Assembly (NCBI GenBank): GCA_009776305.1
Contig: WRLY01000005.1
Coordinates: 62,001 to 126,000, forward strand
DNA: 64,000 nt
Origin: Oscillospiraceae bacterium
GTDB taxonomy: Bacteria > Bacillota > Clostridia > Oscillospirales > Ruminococcaceae
Direction of reading: 5' to 3'
A program made the translations under genes and the position numbers. The notes under the pieces are model-generated. The model was not told where the DNA came from and ran no database searches. It saw nothing but the letters and a program-made list of their open reading frames with translations. Shown here piece after piece: positions 25,052 to 42,584 of the stretch; positions within the stretch are counted from its first letter, which is position 1, and every line of letters begins with the position of its first letter.

Positions 25052-25092
25052 CGGCGGTATGCGGATAATTAATATTAATAGGAGATTTGTAA

Positions 25093-25176
25093 ATGCAAGA
25101 AAAAATATTTTTATGGCTCATTGATGCCGGTAAAGGAATGGTGGGAAAATGGAACTACCGGAAGGAATCGCGATAA
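25093..25176 (+). CDS. Possible 27-residue small ORF overlapping the scpB start
   Basis: ATG at 25093 opens 27 codons (starts MQEKIFLWLIDAGKG) ending TAA at 25174-25176, 28 bases inside scpB in another frame. TAGGAGA ends nine bases before the ATG, a better ribosome-binding site than the one visible for scpB itself. It could be a coupling ORF for scpB or a small amphipathic peptide. No relative recognised. Confidence 0.4.
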   Translation: MQEKIFLWLIDAGKGMVGKWNYRKESR

Positions 25177-34522: not shown

Positions 34523-34858
34523 ATGGAAGCAAGAGCTGAACTTAAACACGTCCGTATTTCTCCGAGGAAGGTCGGAATCGTGCTTGACTTAATCAGAAAT
34601 AAACCGTGCGATATAGCGATGGCGACATTGAAGCTGACCCCTAAGGCGGCGAGCGAGCCCCTTATAAAGCTTCTGAAGTCGGCTATGGCAAACGCCGAAA
34701 ACAACCACATGATGGACATATCCTCGTGCTATGTTTCGCAGTGCTGGTGCGGAGAGGGCATTACCATGAAACGCATACGTCCCAAAGACCACGGACGCGC
34801 CCACCGCATATTAAAGCGTACTTCCAATATATATTTGGTTGTTAAGGAAAAGGAGTAA
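34523..34858 (+). CDS. rplV: 50S ribosomal protein L22
   Basis: 111 residues. ARAELKHVRISPRKVGIVLD, LKSAMANAENNH and the tunnel hairpin region RIRPKDHGRAHRILKRTSN. The stop codon TAA shares a base with the ATG of a 25-codon small ORF (TAATG). Confidence 0.97.
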   Translation: MEARAELKHVRISPRKVGIVLDLIRNKPCDIAMATLKLTPKAASEPLIKLLKSAMANAENNHMMDISSCYVSQCWCGEGITMKRIRPKDHGRAHRILKRTSNIYLVVKEKE

Positions 34859-34935
34859 TGGCTTTGAAAAATAAACCAAGTGAAAGAGGAAGCGTATTTC
34901 TCGGTTTAATGGCGTATGAAAGGGATGGTATATAA
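34858..34935 (+). CDS. Small ORF (25 aa) between rplV and rpsC, ERDGI family
   Basis: ATG overlaps the rplV stop (TAATG) and follows AAAAGGAG, as a real coupled gene would. The peptide starts MALKNKPSERG and ends LMAYERDGI. An ungapped comparison of its last 23 residues with the ORF before secY (41196-41267) gives about 10 identities, including KN, S, G, F and the whole ERDGI end; the DNA ends in the same 18 bases (GAAAGGGATGGTATATAA). The last codons double as purine-rich upstream sequence for rpsC, three bases on. Not a recognised ribosomal protein. It could be a coupling peptide or a duplicated translational-control module. Confidence 0.6.
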   Translation: MALKNKPSERGSVFLGLMAYERDGI

Positions 34936-34938
34936 AAC

Positions 34939-35901
34939 ATGGGACAAAAGGTTAATCCGCACGGGCTTAGAGTCGGTATTATAAAAGACTGGGATTCCCG
35001 TTGGTACGCGGGGAAGTCGGCGTTCGGCGATACTTTGGTAGAGGATTATAGAATCCGTGAGTATTTCGCGGGTAAAACATACCGCTCCGAAAAGTCTCCC
35101 GTTCCCTTGAAACCCGGTATTTCATTAGTGGAAATAGAGCGCGACGCGACTAAGGTGAAGGTGTTTATCCACACCGCAAAGCCGGGTATATTAATCGGCT
35201 CCAAGGGCGCGGAAATTGAACGTATGAAAAAAGACCTTGAGAAAATCACAAAGGGCAAGCCCGTAAATTTGAATATCATCGAGGTTAAGGAATTAGATAT
35301 GAACGCGCAGCTTGTGGCTGAAAACATAGCCCAGCAGCTTGAACAGCGCGTTTCATTCAGACGCGCTATGAAACAGGTAATCGGCAGAACCATGAGAGCC
35401 GGTGCTAAAGGTATTAAAACAATGGTTTCGGGTCGTCTCGGAGGCGCGGAAATAGCGCGTGCCGAAAGCTATAAAGAGGGTACGATTCCGCTTCAGACGC
35501 TTCGTGCAGACATTGATTACGGCACGGCAAGGGCAAACACGACTTACGGCGTTATCGGCGTAAAGGTTTGGATATACAAAGGCGAGGTCTTAAAAGGTGA
35601 AGTCGGCGCGGCTAAGAAAAGAATCGAGTCTATGAAACGCGAACCGACAAACAGAAAGCCGAGGGGCGAAAAACGTTTTGACGGCAGAAGTAACGACCGT
35701 TTCAGGAATGACCGTCCGGGCAACCGTGAAACAAGAGTAAGAACCGCTTCCGACAGACCGTTTGACAGAAATTCCGACAGAGCCGCAGGCGGCGCAAGAC
35801 CTGCGCCGAGAGCGGAAGTTGCACCAAGGGCGGAGGTTGCTCCTGTAGCCGCACCCGCACCGACACCCGTAGATACTAAAAAAGAGGGAGGTAACGAATA
35901 A
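34939..35901 (+). CDS. rpsC: 30S ribosomal protein S3 with long C-terminal extension
   Basis: 320 residues. Residues 1-215 are standard S3: [20 protein letters not shown], the KH domain with [20 protein letters not shown], and [20 protein letters not shown]. About 100 extra residues follow, rich in Arg, Asp, Asn, Pro and Ala ([15 protein letters not shown], repeated [14 protein letters not shown]). S3 usually ends near 210-230 residues. The extension looks disordered and RNA-binding-like; its role is unknown. No strong ribosome-binding site lies close to the ATG, which follows the small ORF by three bases, so coupling is likely. Confidence 0.95.
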
Positions 35902-36347
35902 TGCTGCTTCCTAAAAGAGTTAAATACAGAAGGCAACAAAGAGGACGCATGAAGGGTAAGGCGTCACGCGGCAACAGAGTTAGCAATGGCGATTTCGGCT
36001 TGCAGGCGTTAGAGCCGTCATGGGTGACCTCAAACCAGATTGAGGCGGCGCGTATTGCAATGACGCGTTATATAAAGCGCGGCGGTCAGGTTTGGATTAA
36101 GATTTTCCCTGACAAGCCCGTTACGCAAAAACCGGCAGAAACCCGCATGGGTTCCGGTAAAGGTTCCCCTGAATACTGGGTGGCTGTAGTAAAGCCCGGC
36201 AGAGTTATGTTTGAAATTGCAGGAGTTCCGGAGGAAACCGCGCGTGAAGCTATGAGACTTGCGTCGCATAAACTTCCGGTAAAGTGCAAGTTCATTAGAA
36301 AGGCAGAGGAGGTTTCGGGTAATGAAGTTAGCGAAGGAAATGCGTGA
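35901..36347 (+). CDS. rplP: 50S ribosomal protein L16
   Basis: 148 residues. [40 protein letters not shown] and [20 protein letters not shown]. The ATG overlaps the rpsC stop by one base. The C-terminus overlaps rpmC by 26 bases, an unusually long overlap that adds an acidic tail (GNEVSEGNA). Confidence 0.97.
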
Positions 36348-36552
36348 ATTATCTGAGCTTGAGCTTAATGAAAAGGTTTCAGACCTTAAACAGGAGCTTT
36401 TCAATCTGCGCTTTCAGCACGCGGTAAACCAGCTTGAAAACCCGCAGAGAATAAAAGCTGTCAAAAAGCATATAGCAATCATTAAAACTATACAGCGCGA
36501 ACGTGAGCTTAGTACTTCTGCCGGAAGTACTCGGGCAAGCGCGGCGAACTGA
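36322..36552 (+). CDS. rpmC: 50S ribosomal protein L29
   Basis: 76 residues. [40 protein letters not shown] and [14 protein letters not shown] are L29. The last ~12 residues ([13 protein letters not shown]) are a small extra tail. Starts inside rplP after GAGG. Confidence 0.96.
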
Positions 36553-36563
36553 GGGAGGGCAGT

Positions 36564-36821
36564 ATGAGCGATAGAAATTTACGCAAGACAAGAGTAGGAG
36601 TAGTCACCAGCGATAAGATGGATAAAAGCATCGTAATCGCTATTAAAGACAATGTTCGTCATCCCTTGTATAAAAAAATCATTAAGCGCACTATAAAGCT
36701 CAAAGCGCACGACGAAAAGAATGAATGTGGCGTGGGTGACAAGGTTGAGGTTATGGAAACCCGTCCGCTTTCCAAAGATAAGCACTGGCGCTTAGTCAGA
36801 GTTTTGGAAAAAGCAAAATAA
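36564..36821 (+). CDS. rpsQ: 30S ribosomal protein S17
   Basis: 85 residues. [40 protein letters not shown] and [27 protein letters not shown] precedes the ATG. Confidence 0.97.
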
Positions 36822-36835
36822 TCGGCGAAAAATTG

Positions 36836-36857
36836 TAGGGGCGCGTGTTAAGCGTCC
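36836..36857. repeat. TAGGGGC-type short palindrome, diverged copy
   Basis: TAGGGGCGCGTGTTAAGCGTCC: GGGCGC pairs with GCGTCC (one G-T) around GTGTTAA. It fills the rpsQ-rplN gap just before the rplN ribosome-binding site. Related in layout to 8987, 10511 and 44736. Confidence 0.45.
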
Positions 36858-36871
36858 GTGGAGGAATAATC

Positions 36872-37240
36872 ATGATACAAATGCAGTCCCGCCTGAAAAT
36901 AGCCGACAACACCGGCGCTAAAGAAATTATGTGCATAAGAGTGTTGGGCGGAACCCGTCGCAGATACGCCAATATAGGTGACGTAATAGTTGCATCGGTT
37001 AAAAAAGCCGCTCCCGGCGGTACGGCGAAAAAAGGCGAAATTGTACGTTGCGTTATAGTACGCTCAAAAACGGGCGTAAGACGCCAGGACGGCACATATA
37101 TCCGTTTTGACGAGAACGCGGCTGTTATTATCAAGGAAGACAAAAATCCCAGAGGAACCCGTATTTTCGGACCGGTGGCGAGAGAATTGCGCGAAAAGGA
37201 TTATATCAAAATTTTATCGCTCGCGCCGGAGGTTCTGTAA
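36872..37240 (+). CDS. rplN: 50S ribosomal protein L14
   Basis: 122 residues, the canonical length. [40 protein letters not shown] and [13 protein letters not shown]. The start follows GGAGG at 36860; the longer frame from 36845 adds nine unlikely residues. Confidence 0.97.
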
Positions 37241-37287
37241 GGGGGCATCGCCCTCGATGTCCCGTAAATTAAACAAGGAGCAATATA

Positions 37288-37602
37288 ATGAACACACTTC
37301 ATGTTAGAAAAGGCGACGAAGTAATAGTCATTTCCGGCAAGGATAAAGGCAAAAAGGGCAAGGTGCTGGAATGTAGCCCCAAAGAGGGTAAGGTAATTGT
37401 CGAGGGGCGCAATATCGTAAGCAAGCACGTGAAGCCTAAAAAGGCGGGTCAGCTCGGCGGTATAGTTAAAGCCGAGGGTGCACTTTACGCTTGCAAGGTT
37501 ATGCCGGTTTGTCCGAAATGCGATAAGCCTACCCGCGTAGGGCATGAGATGAAAAATGATAAGAAAATCAGGGTTTGCAAAAAATGCGGGGCGTCCCTTT
37601 AA
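37288..37602 (+). CDS. rplX: 50S ribosomal protein L24
   Basis: 104 residues. [20 protein letters not shown] (KOW motif) and a C-terminal [11 protein letters not shown]...CKKCGASL with four cysteines, a zinc-ribbon form of L24 found in many bacteria. A hairpin, GGGGCATCG/CGATGTCCC (37242-37250/37255-37263), lies upstream. AAGGAG precedes the ATG. Confidence 0.97.
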
Positions 37603-37716
37603 TTGCAAGTTCCGTTTAGGGACAAGGCGTATACACAGGTTAGCAGTCAGTAATTATCACGGAGCGGCAGGGTAAAGAAGCTCCCTGTTTCCGTAAGATA
37701 AGGAGAAAAAATAAAA

Positions 37717-38259
37717 ATGGCAAGAATGAAAACCCATTATAACGAAACCGTTGCCCCCGCTCTTTTTAAGAAGTTCGGTTATAAAAGCATAATGCAGGTT
37801 CCGAAAATCAATAAAATAGTAGTAAACGTGGCTTGCGGTGCGGCAAAGGATAACCCGAAAATAGTGGAAAGCATAACAAGCGACATTAAACAAATCACAG
37901 GGCAAAAACCCGTTATTTGTAAGGCGAAAAAGTCGGTGGCGAACTTCAAGCTCCGTGAGGGGAATATAATCGGATTGAAGGTTACCCTCAGAGATACGGT
38001 AATGTATGAATTCCTTGACAGATTTTTTAACGTTGCGCTTCCGCGCGTAAGAGACTTCAGAGGAATCAGCCCCAACGCCTTTGACGGCAGGGGGAATTAT
38101 TCGGTAGGAATAAAAGAACAGCTTATATTCCCTGAAATTGAGTACGATAAAATTGACGCGGTACGCGGAATGGACATCAGCTTTGTAACAACGGCAAAAA
38201 CGGACGAGGAAGCAAGAGAGCTTTTAAGTCTTATGGGCGCACCCTTCGCCAAGCAGTAG
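37717..38259 (+). CDS. rplE: 50S ribosomal protein L5
   Basis: 180 residues. [40 protein letters not shown] and [20 protein letters not shown]. It contacts 5S rRNA. The 114-base gap from rplX is long for this operon and holds a hairpin CAGGG/CCCTG with outer ACGG/CCGT (37659-37694). AAGGAGA precedes the ATG. Confidence 0.97.
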
Positions 38260-38283
38260 TGTTGAGAGAAAGGATAAATCACA

Positions 38284-38469
38284 ATGGCAAAAAAATCAAT
38301 GATAGCAAGCCAAAAACGTGAGCCGAAATTTTCTACCCGTTCTTACAACAGGTGCAAAATATGCGGCAGACCGCACGCCTATTTACGCAAATTCGGCGTT
38401 TGCAGAATTTGTTTCAGAGAACTTGCTTACAAAGGGCATATTCCCGGCGTAAAAAAATCAAGTTGGTGA
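38284..38469 (+). CDS. rpsN: 30S ribosomal protein S14, zinc type
   Basis: 61 residues with [20 protein letters not shown], the four-cysteine zinc site of the S14Z form, and [23 protein letters not shown] lies before the ATG. Confidence 0.97.
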
Positions 38470-38525
38470 CGATACAATTTAGTTGACGATTATAGTGGTA
38501 GCTTACTATACAAGGAGGAAAAACA

Positions 38526-38924
38526 ATGCAGATAACCGACACGATTGCGGATATGCTGACGAGAATACGTAACGCCAATTCCGCCAAGCACCAATATGTC
38601 GATATCCCGGCTTCCAATATGAAAAAGCAAATAGCGCAGATATTGGTTGACGAAGGCTATATCAAGAGTTTTCGTATAATAGAGGATAACAAGCAGGGTA
38701 TAATCAGAATTACGCTGAAATATACCGATAATAAAGCGCAGGTCATTCAAGGGTTGCGGAGGGTTTCAAAACCCGGACTCAGAATTTATGCAGGTAGCAA
38801 GGATATGCCCAAGGTGATGAAAGGTCTCGGTATCGCTATCGTTTCCACATCAAAGGGCATCATGACCGACAAACGGGCGAGAGCCGAACAAGTCGGCGGT
38901 GAAGTCCTCGCGTTTGTCTGGTAA
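38526..38924 (+). CDS. rpsH: 30S ribosomal protein S8
   Basis: 132 residues. [20 protein letters not shown] and the end [20 protein letters not shown], then VLAFVW. S8 binds its own operon mRNA in E. coli; no matching structure was sought here. AAGGAGG precedes the ATG. Confidence 0.97.
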
Positions 38925-38948
38925 GTATGGTAAGGAGGAGCTATTATT

Positions 38949-39494
38949 ATGTCCAGAATAGGTAAAATGCCCGTGGCTGTTCCTGCCGGAGTAGATGTTA
39001 AAATCGACGGGAACATGGTAACGGTAAAAGGTCCCAAAGGGACTCTTTCAAGAAATATCAAGCCGGAAATCACAGTAGTTCAGGAAGGCGCTGAACTTAT
39101 TGTCGAGCGCAAAGACGACGACAAAACCAGCCGTTCACTGCACGGTCTCACGAGAACGCTTGTAGCTAATATGGTGACAGGCGTAACCGCGGGCTTTACA
39201 AAAGAGTTGGAAATAAACGGAGTTGGTTACAGATGTGCAAAAAAAGGCAAGGACTTAGACCTTACTTTAGGTTTTTCACATCCTGTCATCGTCACCGATA
39301 CCGACGACATCAAAACCGAAGTCCCCTCGCCTAATAAGATTGTTGTAACAGGTATTGACAAGCAAAAGGTCGGGCAGTTCGCGGCAGAAATACGCAGAAT
39401 TCGTCCTGTTGAGCCTTATAAAGGCAAGGGAATCAAGTATGCCGGCGAATTTGTAGTCCGTAAGGAAGGCAAAGCGGGCAAAGGCAAAAAATAG
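38949..39494 (+). CDS. rplF: 50S ribosomal protein L6
   Basis: 181 residues. [40 protein letters not shown] and the C-terminal [27 protein letters not shown] precedes the ATG. Confidence 0.97.
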
Positions 39495-39550
39495 TTAATA
39501 ATAAATAATGAGTAATCAATGGTTATTCATTGTCTTATCGGGAGTTTATC

Positions 39551-39910
39551 ATGATAAATGTGATTAATAAAAACAAAAACAGATTAAACAGACACAAGCG
39601 TGTTCGCGGTAAAATCACCGGTACGTCTGAGCGTCCGAGGCTTTGCGTTTTCCGTTCGGCAAAAAACATATACGCGCAATTGATTGACGACACTTCAAAA
39701 GCTACCTTGGTTTCGGCGTCCACATTGGACAAGGACTTTAAAGGCAACGGCGGAAACGTCGAAGCCGCAAAGAAAGTCGGACTGACTTTGGCGACAAAAG
39801 CCAAGGCTAAAGGTTTTGAAACCGTTGTTTTTGACCGTGCGGGTTATCTCTATCACGGAAGAATCGCGGCTTTAGCCGACGGTGCGCGTGAAGGCGGATT
39901 GAAATTCTAA
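39551..39910 (+). CDS. rplR: 50S ribosomal protein L18
   Basis: 119 residues. [35 protein letters not shown] and [25 protein letters not shown] at 39540 supports this ATG; the frame could start at a TTG 21 bases earlier but that lacks a site. The gap before it is an AT-rich repeat-like stretch. Confidence 0.96.
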
Positions 39911-39963
39911 TTAATAATTAATAGTGAATAATTAATAATTAATAATTATTAATTAACATTTCT
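39911..39963. repeat. AT-rich TAATAATT-type repeat between rplR and rpsE
   Basis: This gap consists of overlapping AATTAATA/TAATAATT units. Similar stretches occur at 2868-2890, 39497-39535 and 55338-55368. It has no coding or hairpin-terminator character. Confidence 0.5.
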
Positions 39964-39974
39964 TAGGAGGAACT

Positions 39975-40475
39975 ATGGCACTTTTAGATGCAGCAAATTA
40001 TGAGCTTTCCGAGAGAGTCGTTAATATTAAGCGGGTATCCAAGACCGTTAAGGGCGGACGTATAATGAAAATTTCCGCTTTGGTCGTTGTAGGCGACGGT
40101 AACGGCGTAGTAGGTTTCGGAATGGGTAAATCTAACGAGGTTCCTGATGCGATTCGTAAAGGAATTGAGGATGCGAAAAAGAACTTAGTTAAAGTAATCA
40201 CAAAAAATTCCACCATACCGCATGAAATAATCGGCAAATACGGTGCGGGCGCGGTGCTGATGAAACCTGCCCCCGAGGGTACCGGCGTTATTGCCGGCGG
40301 AGCTGTGCGCGCTGTTGTTGAAATGGCGGGAATCAGAAACATCAGGACAAAATCCCTGCGCTCCAATAACCCGTGCAATGTCGTGCGCGCAACGGTGCAG
40401 GGCTTGCTGTCTTTGCGCGGCGCGGAAGAAGTAGCCGCCGTAAGAGGGAAGACGGTTAAAGAGCTTTTTGTATAA
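39975..40475 (+). CDS. rpsE: 30S ribosomal protein S5
   Basis: 166 residues. [40 protein letters not shown] and [20 protein letters not shown]. It shapes the mRNA entry site. AGGAGGA precedes the ATG. Confidence 0.97.
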
Positions 40476-40508
40476 ATTCGCGTAATAAAGAAAGGGAGTT
40501 ACACCGTT

Positions 40509-40685
40509 ATGGCACTTAAAATAAAATTAGTCAAATCGTTAATAGGACGTAAAGACAGCCATATCGCAACCGCACATTCGCTCGGACTGCGTAAAATCGG
40601 CGCTGTTACCGTTCAGCCGGACAACGACGCGACAAGAGGGAAAATAAATCATATTTCATACCTTGTGGAGGTTGAATCCGAGTAA
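40509..40685 (+). CDS. rpmD: 50S ribosomal protein L30
   Basis: 58 residues; ATG at 40509 after AAAGGGAG, stop 40683-40685. [34 protein letters not shown] and [10 protein letters not shown] are L30. A perfect hairpin AATTTCGG/CCGAAATT (40684-40691/40698-40705) starts in its stop codon. It lies in the standard spc position between rpsE and rplO. Confidence 0.96.
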
Positions 40686-40746
40686 TTTCGGAAACAACCG
40701 AAATTCACGAGGCAATGAGATTTCATAAAGTAAGGATGGGATTATA

Positions 40747-41193
40747 ATGAAATTACATGAATTATCCCCGGCTAAGGGTTCAAACAAAAAAACCAAACGT
40801 CTCGGGCGCGGTAACGCTTCCGGTCACGGAAAAACGTCGGGTAAAGGTCATAAGGGTCAATGGGCGCGTTCGGGTGGCGGTGTAAAGCCGGGCTTTGAGG
40901 GCGGTCAGATGAAAATCGCTATGCGTATACCAAAGCGCGGTTTTAATAATAAAGCTTTCGCTACGGAGTATGCAATCGTTAATGTCCGCGATTTGGAAAG
41001 CCGTTTTGAAACCGGCGCGGTGATTGACTGCGATGCTATTATTGAAAGCGGGCTGATTAAAAAGCCTTTAGACGGTATAAAAATCTTAGGTACGGGAGAG
41101 TTGTCCAAGGCTTTTACCGTAAAAGCGGCAAAATTTTCGGAAACCGCCAAGACCAAAATTGAAAATGCCGGGGGAAAGGCTGAGGTGGTATAG
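40747..41193 (+). CDS. rplO: 50S ribosomal protein L15
   Basis: 148 residues. KLHELSPAKGSNKKTKRLGR, GHKGQWARSGGGVKPGFEGG and MRIPKRGFNNKAF. AAGGATGG lies before the ATG. A TTG-initiated small ORF starts three bases after its stop. Confidence 0.97.
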   Translation: MKLHELSPAKGSNKKTKRLGRGNASGHGKTSGKGHKGQWARSGGGVKPGFEGGQMKIAMRIPKRGFNNKAFATEYAIVNVRDLESRFETGAVIDCDAIIESGLIKKPLDGIKILGTGELSKAFTVKAAKFSETAKTKIENAGGKAEVV

Positions 41194-41195
41194 TT

Positions 41196-41267
41196 TTGAA
41201 AAATAGAACAAGCGTAACAGGAAAACCATTTACTGATGCCTTGATGTCGGAAAGGGATGGTATATAA
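41196..41267 (+). CDS. Small ORF (23 aa) between rplO and secY, ERDGI family
   Basis: TTG start at 41196, preceded by GAGGTGG at seven-base spacing; 23 codons ending TAA at 41265-41267, directly against the secY ATG. The peptide starts MKNRTSVTGKPF and ends LMSERDGI. Both its sequence and its last 18 bases match the ORF before rpsC (34858-34935): starts in a TTGAAAAATA context, same length from there, same ERDGI end. A coupling or leader peptide for secY is the simplest reading. It is not a known ribosomal protein. Confidence 0.55.
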   Translation: MKNRTSVTGKPFTDALMSERDGI

Positions 41268-42584
41268 ATGTTTCAGATTTTCAAGAATGCGTGGAAAATC
41301 GCTGATTTACGTAAAAAGATTTTATACACGGCTCTTATAATCCTTATATTCAGAATCGGAAGTGCAATTTTCGTACCTTTCCTTGACACCGATGTGGTTC
41401 AGGGTATGCTTGCGGGTGGTGAAAATACACTTTTGGGATTCATGGATACCATGACGGGCGGTGCGCTCGGAAAAGGTACGCTTTTTGCTATGTCCATAAC
41501 GCCGTATATTAACGCCTCGATTATTATGCAGCTCTTGACTGTTGCAATTCCGGTATTGGAACGGCTCAGTAAAGAGGGCGACGAGGGGCGCAAGAAAATA
41601 AATAAAATTACTAAATTTGTGGCGCTCGGCATAGGAATGTTTCAGGCGGTCGCGTTCTACATCACACTCAGAAACAACGGTGCAGTAAGCTATACCGAAA
41701 ATTTTGACGGTTTTTTGGCTATGATTACCATTGTGGGCTGTTTCACGGCGGGCGCATCGCTTATTATATGGCTTGGCGACCAAATCAACGAAAAAGGGAT
41801 TGGAAACGGTATATCAATTATACTTTTCGCAGGTATTGTTTCAAGGCTTCCGATAGATATGATGAACCTCGGAAGGCAGATGTCAATACAGGATTCAAGC
41901 GGTTTCCACAGGAACTTTATCTTAATTCCTTTATATATCGTTTTGTATGTTGCTATGATAGGCTTGGTAGTTTTGATGACCAACGCCGAGCGCAGAATTC
42001 CCGTACAGTACGCAAAGCGGGTAGTGGGACGGAAAATGTACGGTGGACAGTCCTCGCATATTCCCATTAAAGTAGCTATGGCAGGGGTTATGCCGATTAT
42101 ATTCGCTATGTCGATTATGTCATTGCCGCAGACGATTTTATTTTTCTTCGGAATTGACGGTACGGGCGGAGGTTCGGTATTCTGGAACAACTTTTTGCGT
42201 TACTTTAATCAGGGAACTTGGCTATACGCGGTAATATACTTCTTCCTGATTATATTCTTCAACTATTTCTATATTTCAATTCAGTATAACCCTATAGAAA
42301 TAGCCAATAATTTAAAGAAAAATAACGGCGCGATTCCCGGTTATCGTCCGGGCAAGCCAACGTCGGACTTTATTCACAACTCGCTCTCGAAAATCACGCT
42401 GATTGGTGCAATCTTTCTTGGTTTTGTGGCAATCTTCCCAATCGCGTTCTCCAATATCACCGGCATAGCGGGAATGTCTATGGGTGGTACAACTATGCTG
42501 ATTGTGGTCGGTGTTGCGCTTGAAACAGTGCGCTCTCTCGAAAGCCAGATGATGATGCGTCACCACAAAGGATTCCTTGAATAA
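41268..42584 (+). CDS. secY: Protein translocase subunit SecY
   Basis: A 438-residue, ten-helix translocon channel. FKNAWKIADLRKKILYTALI at the start, FAMSITPYINASIIMQLLTV, the cytoplasmic loop NAERRIPVQYAKRVVGRKMY and the C-terminal YNPIEIANNLKKNNGAIPGY, PGKPT. It conducts secretory and membrane proteins. The ribosome-binding sequence lies in the preceding small ORF. Confidence 0.98.
   Translation: MFQIFKNAWKIADLRKKILYTALIILIFRIGSAIFVPFLDTDVVQGMLAGGENTLLGFMDTMTGGALGKGTLFAMSITPYINASIIMQLLTVAIPVLERLSKEGDEGRKKINKITKFVALGIGMFQAVAFYITLRNNGAVSYTENFDGFLAMITIVGCFTAGASLIIWLGDQINEKGIGNGISIILFAGIVSRLPIDMMNLGRQMSIQDSSGFHRNFILIPLYIVLYVAMIGLVVLMTNAERRIPVQYAKRVVGRKMYGGQSSHIPIKVAMAGVMPIIFAMSIMSLPQTILFFFGIDGTGGGSVFWNNFLRYFNQGTWLYAVIYFFLIIFFNYFYISIQYNPIEIANNLKKNNGAIPGYRPGKPTSDFIHNSLSKITLIGAIFLGFVAIFPIAFSNITGIAGMSMGGTTMLIVVGVALETVRSLESQMMMRHHKGFLE

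Follow-up and report, generated by a model that had tools for sequence, protein, structure and literature searches.

REP sequences and REPINs are short hairpin repeats that occur in tens of copies per genome and are associated with the RAYT (Y1) transposase, and the mobile translational bypass elements (byps) of yeast mitochondria are short, hairpin-bearing mobile inserts that are met by the ribosome inside reading frames. No transposon or repeat family described so far is, to our knowledge, aimed at the junction between a Shine-Dalgarno (SD) sequence and the start codon. Our literature searches, with most subscription papers outside their coverage, returned no description of such a family or of the element presented here. 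In the accessible literature, the nearest described system is that of the TAACTGA heptamer direct repeats of marine Beggiatoaceae, some Cyanobacteria and Bacteroidetes, which, according to the accessible part of the source, lie a few nucleotides upstream of the starts of many unrelated genes, including ribosomal ones, are lineage-specific and have been proposed to have a role in translation (PMC4679880). The BOX, RUP and SPRITE elements of Streptococcus pneumoniae, as the available part of their source describes them, are also small dispersed repeats, probably non-autonomous and mobile, and some of them form open reading frames (ORFs) (PMC3049150). The subject of this report is a repeat found in a 64,000-nt stretch (the window) of contig WRLY01000005.1, from the genome of a gut bacterium (G000), where one short segment ahead of rpsC and another ahead of secY each bear a micro-ORF and end in the same 18 bases.

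The two segments are probably copies of small non-autonomous mobile elements that insert between a gene's native SD and its start codon and leave that gene translatable. The element would be about 65-110 nt long, strongly structured in several relatives and weakly structured here; it would open with GTTTGAAA, carry one or two stem-loops, and close with an SD of its own and the spacer GGAAAGGnATGGTnATAAAA set against the start codon. Once the element is in place, translation of the gene behind it would begin from the element's SD, so that essential genes could tolerate the event, and the native SD would be left facing the TTG of GTTTGAAA, from which micro-ORFs would arise by chance. Byps are likewise hairpin-bearing mobile inserts, but the elements found here precede the start codon. 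We class the repeat as a new variety of small dispersed mobile repeat rather than as a REP/RAYT system, a miniature inverted-repeat transposable element (MITE), a leader peptide or an Rfam family. Whereas the TAACTGA repeats are heptamer arrays that, in the accessible part of the source, have little SD character and overlap the expected ribosome-binding site (RBS) (PMC4679880), the unit described here is a 65-110-nt segment that has its own SD and lies downstream of the native one.

Repeat copies at start codons

An initial annotation of the window had pointed to micro-ORFs of 25 codons (34858..34935) and 23 codons (41196..41267), to a shared TTTGAAAAATA opening and to an identical 18-base end, and all of these were found (these and all other window features given below lie on the + strand). 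The shared end, GAAAGGGATGGTATATAA, has two exact occurrences in the window and one further place at 3 mismatches, while 100 shuffles of the window gave a mean of 0.10 matches at 3 or fewer mismatches. From TTTGAAAAATA through the last A, both segments measure 73 bases by manual count and align side by side without gaps. They are two homologous copies of one repeat, which ends directly ahead of the start codons. Within the host assembly, which is 1.54 Mb long and 71% complete, the 18-mer was found at nine places with up to 2 mismatches, a 79-base consensus gave 32 matches at E ≤ 10, and a sequence profile built from 26 copies of this genome (own copies) gave 46 matches at the threshold of E ≤ 0.01. 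The resemblance between the rpsC and secY segments thus exceeds chance because the family is genome-wide and not because of an operon-specific duplication; a two-copy duplication inside the ribosomal operon was ruled out by these matches. Units of the own genome measure about 72-79 nt, and several copies stand in tandem.

The position of the copies was examined in 47 distinct own hits. In 40 of them, an ORF of at least 50 codons started within 3 nt of the model end, and in 27 exactly at it; these 40 starts were 38 ATG, one GTG and one TTG. Four of the remaining hits continued into another unit and three did neither, one of these exceptions standing ahead of a 36-codon ORF and the other two being weak hits. 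By comparison, 638 of 20,000 random positions (3.2%; ATG only) lay within 3 nt of such an ATG. An upstream ORF of the same direction ended within 40 nt of, or overlapped, 28 of the 40 sites, so these elements stand near the end of one gene and against the start of the next; BOX, RUP and SPRITE, in contrast, are placed between convergent genes according to the accessible part of their source (PMC3049150). The 40 downstream genes were cut at 330 residues and scanned against NCBIfam, and 34 matched a family at E ≤ 1e-10. Families above the curated cut-off included pyrF, efp, miaA, glyS, secY, secF, rpsC, phoU, dnaN, rsmH and scpB, and matches to phoB, accC, purL and srtB fell below it, some because the genes had been cut short. 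For dnaN, accC, efp and rpsC, the family match begins at residue 1-2, so that their starts appear genuine. The downstream functions are varied and have no common theme, and the element is not restricted to ribosomal operons.

An SD-like sequence, GGAAAGGnATGGT, is carried near the end of the element, and a further one usually lies directly ahead of the element. Among the 47 own copies, 26 were classed as single or first in an array, the rest being without a recognisable 5′ end or behind another unit. An SD-like 4-mer was present in the flank directly upstream of 23 of these 26 (a count made without a control for the 4-mer), and a strong SD 5-mer in 13 of 26, compared with 0-4 of 26 in five shifted windows. 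Duplex energies with the anti-SD were computed against a Firmicute 16S tail. For 25 own copies, the mean was -11.8 kcal/mol at the element end (shuffled -7.3), -9.0 kcal/mol in the upstream flank (shuffled -5.4) and -3.3 kcal/mol in a control window. The mean for 23 native starts of the window was -10.5 kcal/mol. The energies at the element end are like those of native starts, which indicates an element-borne SD of ordinary strength.

The arrangement is seen most directly at rpsC. The native SD of this gene, AAGGAG (34850..34855), now lies about 80 nt 5′ of the start codon, and copy 1 (34862..34938; 59.3 bits, E 1.2e-16 over 34863-34937) occupies the space between them, with the putative element-borne RBS GAAAGGGATGG at 34918..34928 and rpsC, which encodes S3, at 34939..35901 (TIGR01009 rpsC_bact, match from residue 1). 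The nearest relative found, Oscillospiraceae bacterium Pal332_bin5 (the sister genome; L108, G054 and G060 in our sets), has an empty rpsC site that reads AAGGAAAAGGAGTAATAGA-ATGGGACAAAAGG, whereas in the window the element separates the same AAGGAAAAGGAGTAAT from ATGGGACAAAAGG. The assignment of the native SD follows from this site, where the identical AAGGAAAAGGAGTAAT adjoins the rpsC ATG. At secY, the native SD GAGGTGG (41182..41188) lies within the end of rplO, copy 2 follows (41193..41267; 63.3 bits, E 6.8e-18 over 41195-41268) with the putative RBS GGAAAGGGATGG at 41249..41260, and secY begins at 41268 (41268..42584; TIGR00967). A similar GAGGTG or GAGGTA stands ahead of secY in most of the relatives printed (L109-L130), in most of which the upstream gene ends against the secY start or a few bases from it. 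The initial annotation had held that rpsC and secY lack another close SD. This is incorrect, as the shared end of the element pairs with the anti-SD at -10.7 kcal/mol before rpsC and -11.4 kcal/mol before secY, against the mean at the 23 other starts given above. A third, diverged copy with AGGAG upstream (25080..25148; 27.9 bits, E 7.4e-7 over 25091-25143) precedes scpB (TIGR00281), the ATG of which is at 25149.

Filled and empty sites were also compared beyond rpsC, in a sample of 400 kb of the approximately 2.0-Mb sister genome. Eight of the 40 own sites were matched there, and two of them (38% and 44% identity) were set aside as paralogues. Four of the six comparable sites were empty in the sister (rpsC, secF, a KH-protein gene and rsmH), the secY site was occupied by a diverged element of a different subfamily, and miaA was unclear. 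The sister bears its own subfamily at other genes. Many similar copies within one genome, together with sites that are filled in one relative and empty in another, identify the general kind of the element as a small dispersed mobile repeat. The rplP site of another genus member, G017, has the TTG of the element 8 nt after GGGAGGT, at the position of the ATG of its sisters.

Hairpins and forms in relatives

The 14 bases before GGAAAGG can fold into a hairpin with at most five pairs, in which compensatory changes are seen. With a fixed anchor, the fraction of paired positions was 0.56 in own copies, 0.68 in the copy-rich genus member G006 and 0.63 in others (40, 38 and 14 distinct segments, respectively; some mis-anchored own rows were kept), and none of 500 column shuffles reached the observed value in any of the three groups. 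When the 3′ arm was slid, pairing fell to 0.48 or less in G006 and to 0.43 or less in the others. For a stem score, none of 200 shuffles equalled or exceeded the observed score in G000, G006, G027 and G003, but 10 of 200 did so in the sister genome (G060). This last hairpin is weak in both window copies. Only 3 of 5 positions pair in copy 1, and 4 of 5 in copy 2, where it reads GATGC-CTTG-ATGTC (41235..41248; 92 distinct segments were counted in all). Across the own copies only this short last hairpin has support, and there the slid control is nearly as high.

Two strong hairpins are present in the elements of G015, G016, G017 and G047, as in the example GTTTGAAAGAT-aa-ATCTTTCAAAC, then GGAATTTTAC-cct-GTAAAATTCC, then GGAAAGGTATGG. 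Because such two-hairpin forms occur in different members of the genus, structured forms appear to be widespread, and the weak form of the own genome may be derived. At loci L245 and L246 (G015), L225 (G025) and L210 (G016), the first hairpin begins with GTTTGAAA and the second is of the type TTTGTGCC...GGCACAAA. The initial annotation had recognised no described family in these segments, and a comparison of 12 and 17 loci with the Rfam 15 covariance models agrees, since no match reached the gathering score and the weak matches had E values from 0.33 to 4.7; a known structured RNA family was set aside on this ground. Another candidate, the reading of TTGAC(A/G)...TATAA(A/T) as a -35/-10 promoter, was dropped by eye, as transcription would start inside the gene.

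At the threshold given above, the profile matched in 11 of 60 genus genomes. Two of these, G005 and G043, were discounted because what matched there resembles coding sequence, which leaves 9 of 60 by judgement. In G006 the profile found 52 matches, and many of these form tandem arrays of units of about 76 nt with the last unit against a start codon; 28 of 50 hits had a start codon of the kind defined above (26 within 3 bases) and 19 of 50 were followed by another unit. In the G006 arrays L090, L094, L102 and L105 the unit farthest upstream is cut short, in some cases to little beyond GAAAGGnATGGTGTAAAA, as if upstream units decay and the SD part is kept. At the G006 loci L063, L067, L091, L100, L101 and L106 a second 5′ half, AGCGGGTCGAAGCTCCGCTTCGAGCAGGCTGTTAGACACGGCGAATC with near variants, stands on the same 3′ hairpin and RBS module, as if 5′ halves had been swapped between subfamilies. 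The rpsC gene of G027 (L059) is, like that of the window, preceded by an element. The pattern GGAAAGGNATGGTN{2,9}ATG, which describes the 3′ module, was searched for in 71 genus genomes, of which 34 had hits (as many as 40 in one), against a single hit of the reversed control in the whole set. Of 396 family genomes sampled, 121 had hits, and these belonged to 63 of 126 genera; the control gave 7 hits there (manual count). Loci in G103 and G167 have the full plan with GTTTGAAA hairpins.

Micro-ORFs and rival explanations

The initial annotation had read the two micro-ORFs as a duplicated leader or coupling peptide, or a translational module, of the ribosomal operon. Part of this stands, as the segments are homologous and tied to translation initiation. 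The conserved peptide and the restriction to the ribosomal operon are not supported, since copies precede unrelated genes throughout the genome. A functional leader peptide would account for the gapless peptide alignment and the shared ERDGI end, and it was tested by codon position in in-frame copies (15 own and 23 from G006, of which the 10 and 19 of exactly 23 codons were compared). Per-site differences at codon positions 1, 2 and 3 were 0.31, 0.36 and 0.29 in the own copies and 0.196, 0.195 and 0.210 in those of G006. A peptide under selection would give an excess at position 3, and the even divergence is no sign of amino-acid selection. The frame is, moreover, broken or its TTG missing in many copies, and the outcome that the initial annotation had named as a refutation, an end module kept at the nucleotide level with a frame that is often broken, is largely what is seen. 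A leader or coupling peptide under selection was rejected on these grounds, and as an explanation of the two segments it is highly improbable. Both micro-ORFs of the window are present as ORFs and, given copies without codon-position bias, look incidental. A different role for the frame is that of a translation-coupling device, in which the native SD loads ribosomes on the TTG, the hairpin is unfolded and the ribosomes reinitiate at the next start, so that the openness of the frame would matter and not the peptide. The TTG is at the right distance from the native SD, and its frame runs without a stop as far as the next start codon in 19 of 27 TTG-bearing own copies and in 29 of 36 copies of G006, where resampling predicts 27% and 35%, respectively. 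The best support comes from seven other genomes, with 14 of 15 TTG frames open and 3 of 15 third frames. These 14 of 15 and the 29 of 36 in G006 fit a coupling role better than a peptide role. However, the own copies have the third frame open almost as frequently (17 of 27), and G006 has it open in 20 of 36, the second frame being nearly always closed because TTGA contains TGA; further own copies have no TTG; among 17 copies of the structured relatives with a recognisable start and an SD-like flank, only 8 have the TTG frame open; and the element has an SD of its own. We regard coupling as decidedly unlikely.

The placement of the copies could also reflect a regulon, in which an RNA-binding protein or small RNA would control the translation of dozens of unrelated genes by way of an operator made up of the hairpin and GGAAAGG, and copies would have spread by duplication for the regulation that they bring. 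The strict placement against start codons, the 3′ module common to genus and family, the pairing above shuffles and the two strong hairpins of four genus members all suit such a cis-regulatory RNA, and an analogous proposal exists, in the accessible part of the source, for the TAACTGA repeats of Beggiatoaceae (PMC4679880). Against it, the downstream genes share no function, sites differ between sisters to the extent that 4 of 6 comparable ones are empty, and the structure of the subfamilies is very different between relatives. This explanation therefore appears unlikely to us, and the insertion of small mobile elements remains the one that we favor. Several results weigh against mobile elements as well. 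RNAalifold found no consensus structure in 26 own copies, and sliding the 3′ arm by one in the own genome gave a pairing of 0.53, nearly as high as the 0.56 observed, so that the own copies alone hardly prove the hairpin. Copies within one genome are related, and the shuffles overstate their independence. The stem score of the 72 loci that the pattern gave in relatives, some of which are ordinary SDs, did not exceed that of the shuffles (18 of 200 at or above the observed score), and the low-copy hits of the pattern across the family may be ordinary SDs. Both the profile and the pattern end in ATG, a bias toward start codons that does not extend to the long ORFs following them. The own assembly is 71% complete. 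Filled and empty sites compared by eye (rpsC, secY and rplP) had no clear target-site duplication or terminal inverted repeats. No mobilising enzyme was found among the two kinds tried, Y1 transposase and reverse transcriptase.

Spread and further observations

Spread of the element by transposition is suggested by the dispersed copies and by the sites that are filled in one genome and empty in its sister. With REP and REPIN sequences the element shares hairpin repeats and copy number, but the Y1 transposase, present in 20 of 71 genus genomes, was detected in none of the copy-rich genomes G000 (71% complete), G006, G063, G003, G017, G047 and G015, whereas copy-rich G037 has two. Reverse transcriptase (PF00078) was found in 24 of 71 genus genomes, among them the copy-rich G063, G017, G015, G016 and G037, and is absent from the copy-rich G000, G006, G003 and G047. 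Neither enzyme is supported as the mobiliser, each being missing from several copy-rich genomes though present in others. The insertion itself may be targeted rather than only selected. It is possible, although we hold it as a doubtful extension, that the element homes on start codons, with a machinery that recognises the SD/AUG junction, possibly by way of the mRNA or of the ribosome as it initiates, swaps in its own RBS and so colonises essential operons cheaply. In that case as in the more general one, ribosomes would be expected to use the SD of the element.

If the segments are such elements, dozens of genes per genome, here including rpsC, secY, dnaN, efp and accC, have had their RBS replaced by a mobile repeat, at sites that differ between sister species, and translation initiation regions are a target of mobile DNA. 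Gene callers would be misled into short ORFs and wrong starts, and filled and empty sites would provide natural pairs for gauging the effect of an inserted 5′ element on expression.

A phage origin was considered, and the strict 3′ motif occurs in two viral contigs. It lies behind similar leaders at L301:8940-8962 and L302:9922-9944, and its ATG opens 134 codons in the former and 5 in the latter.

Two other features of the ribosomal operon were noted. The RpsC protein of the window (34939-35901) has 320 aa, of which residues 1-219 are spanned by the S3 model, and the C-terminal extension of about 100 aa is charged and repetitive. The gap between rplR and rpsE (39908-39956) is filled by seven imperfect TAATTAA heptamers placed directly 5′ of the rpsE SD, and the same gap is short and plain in the sister genome and in the other relatives printed. 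The array is reminiscent of the TAACTGA heptamer arrays of Beggiatoaceae.

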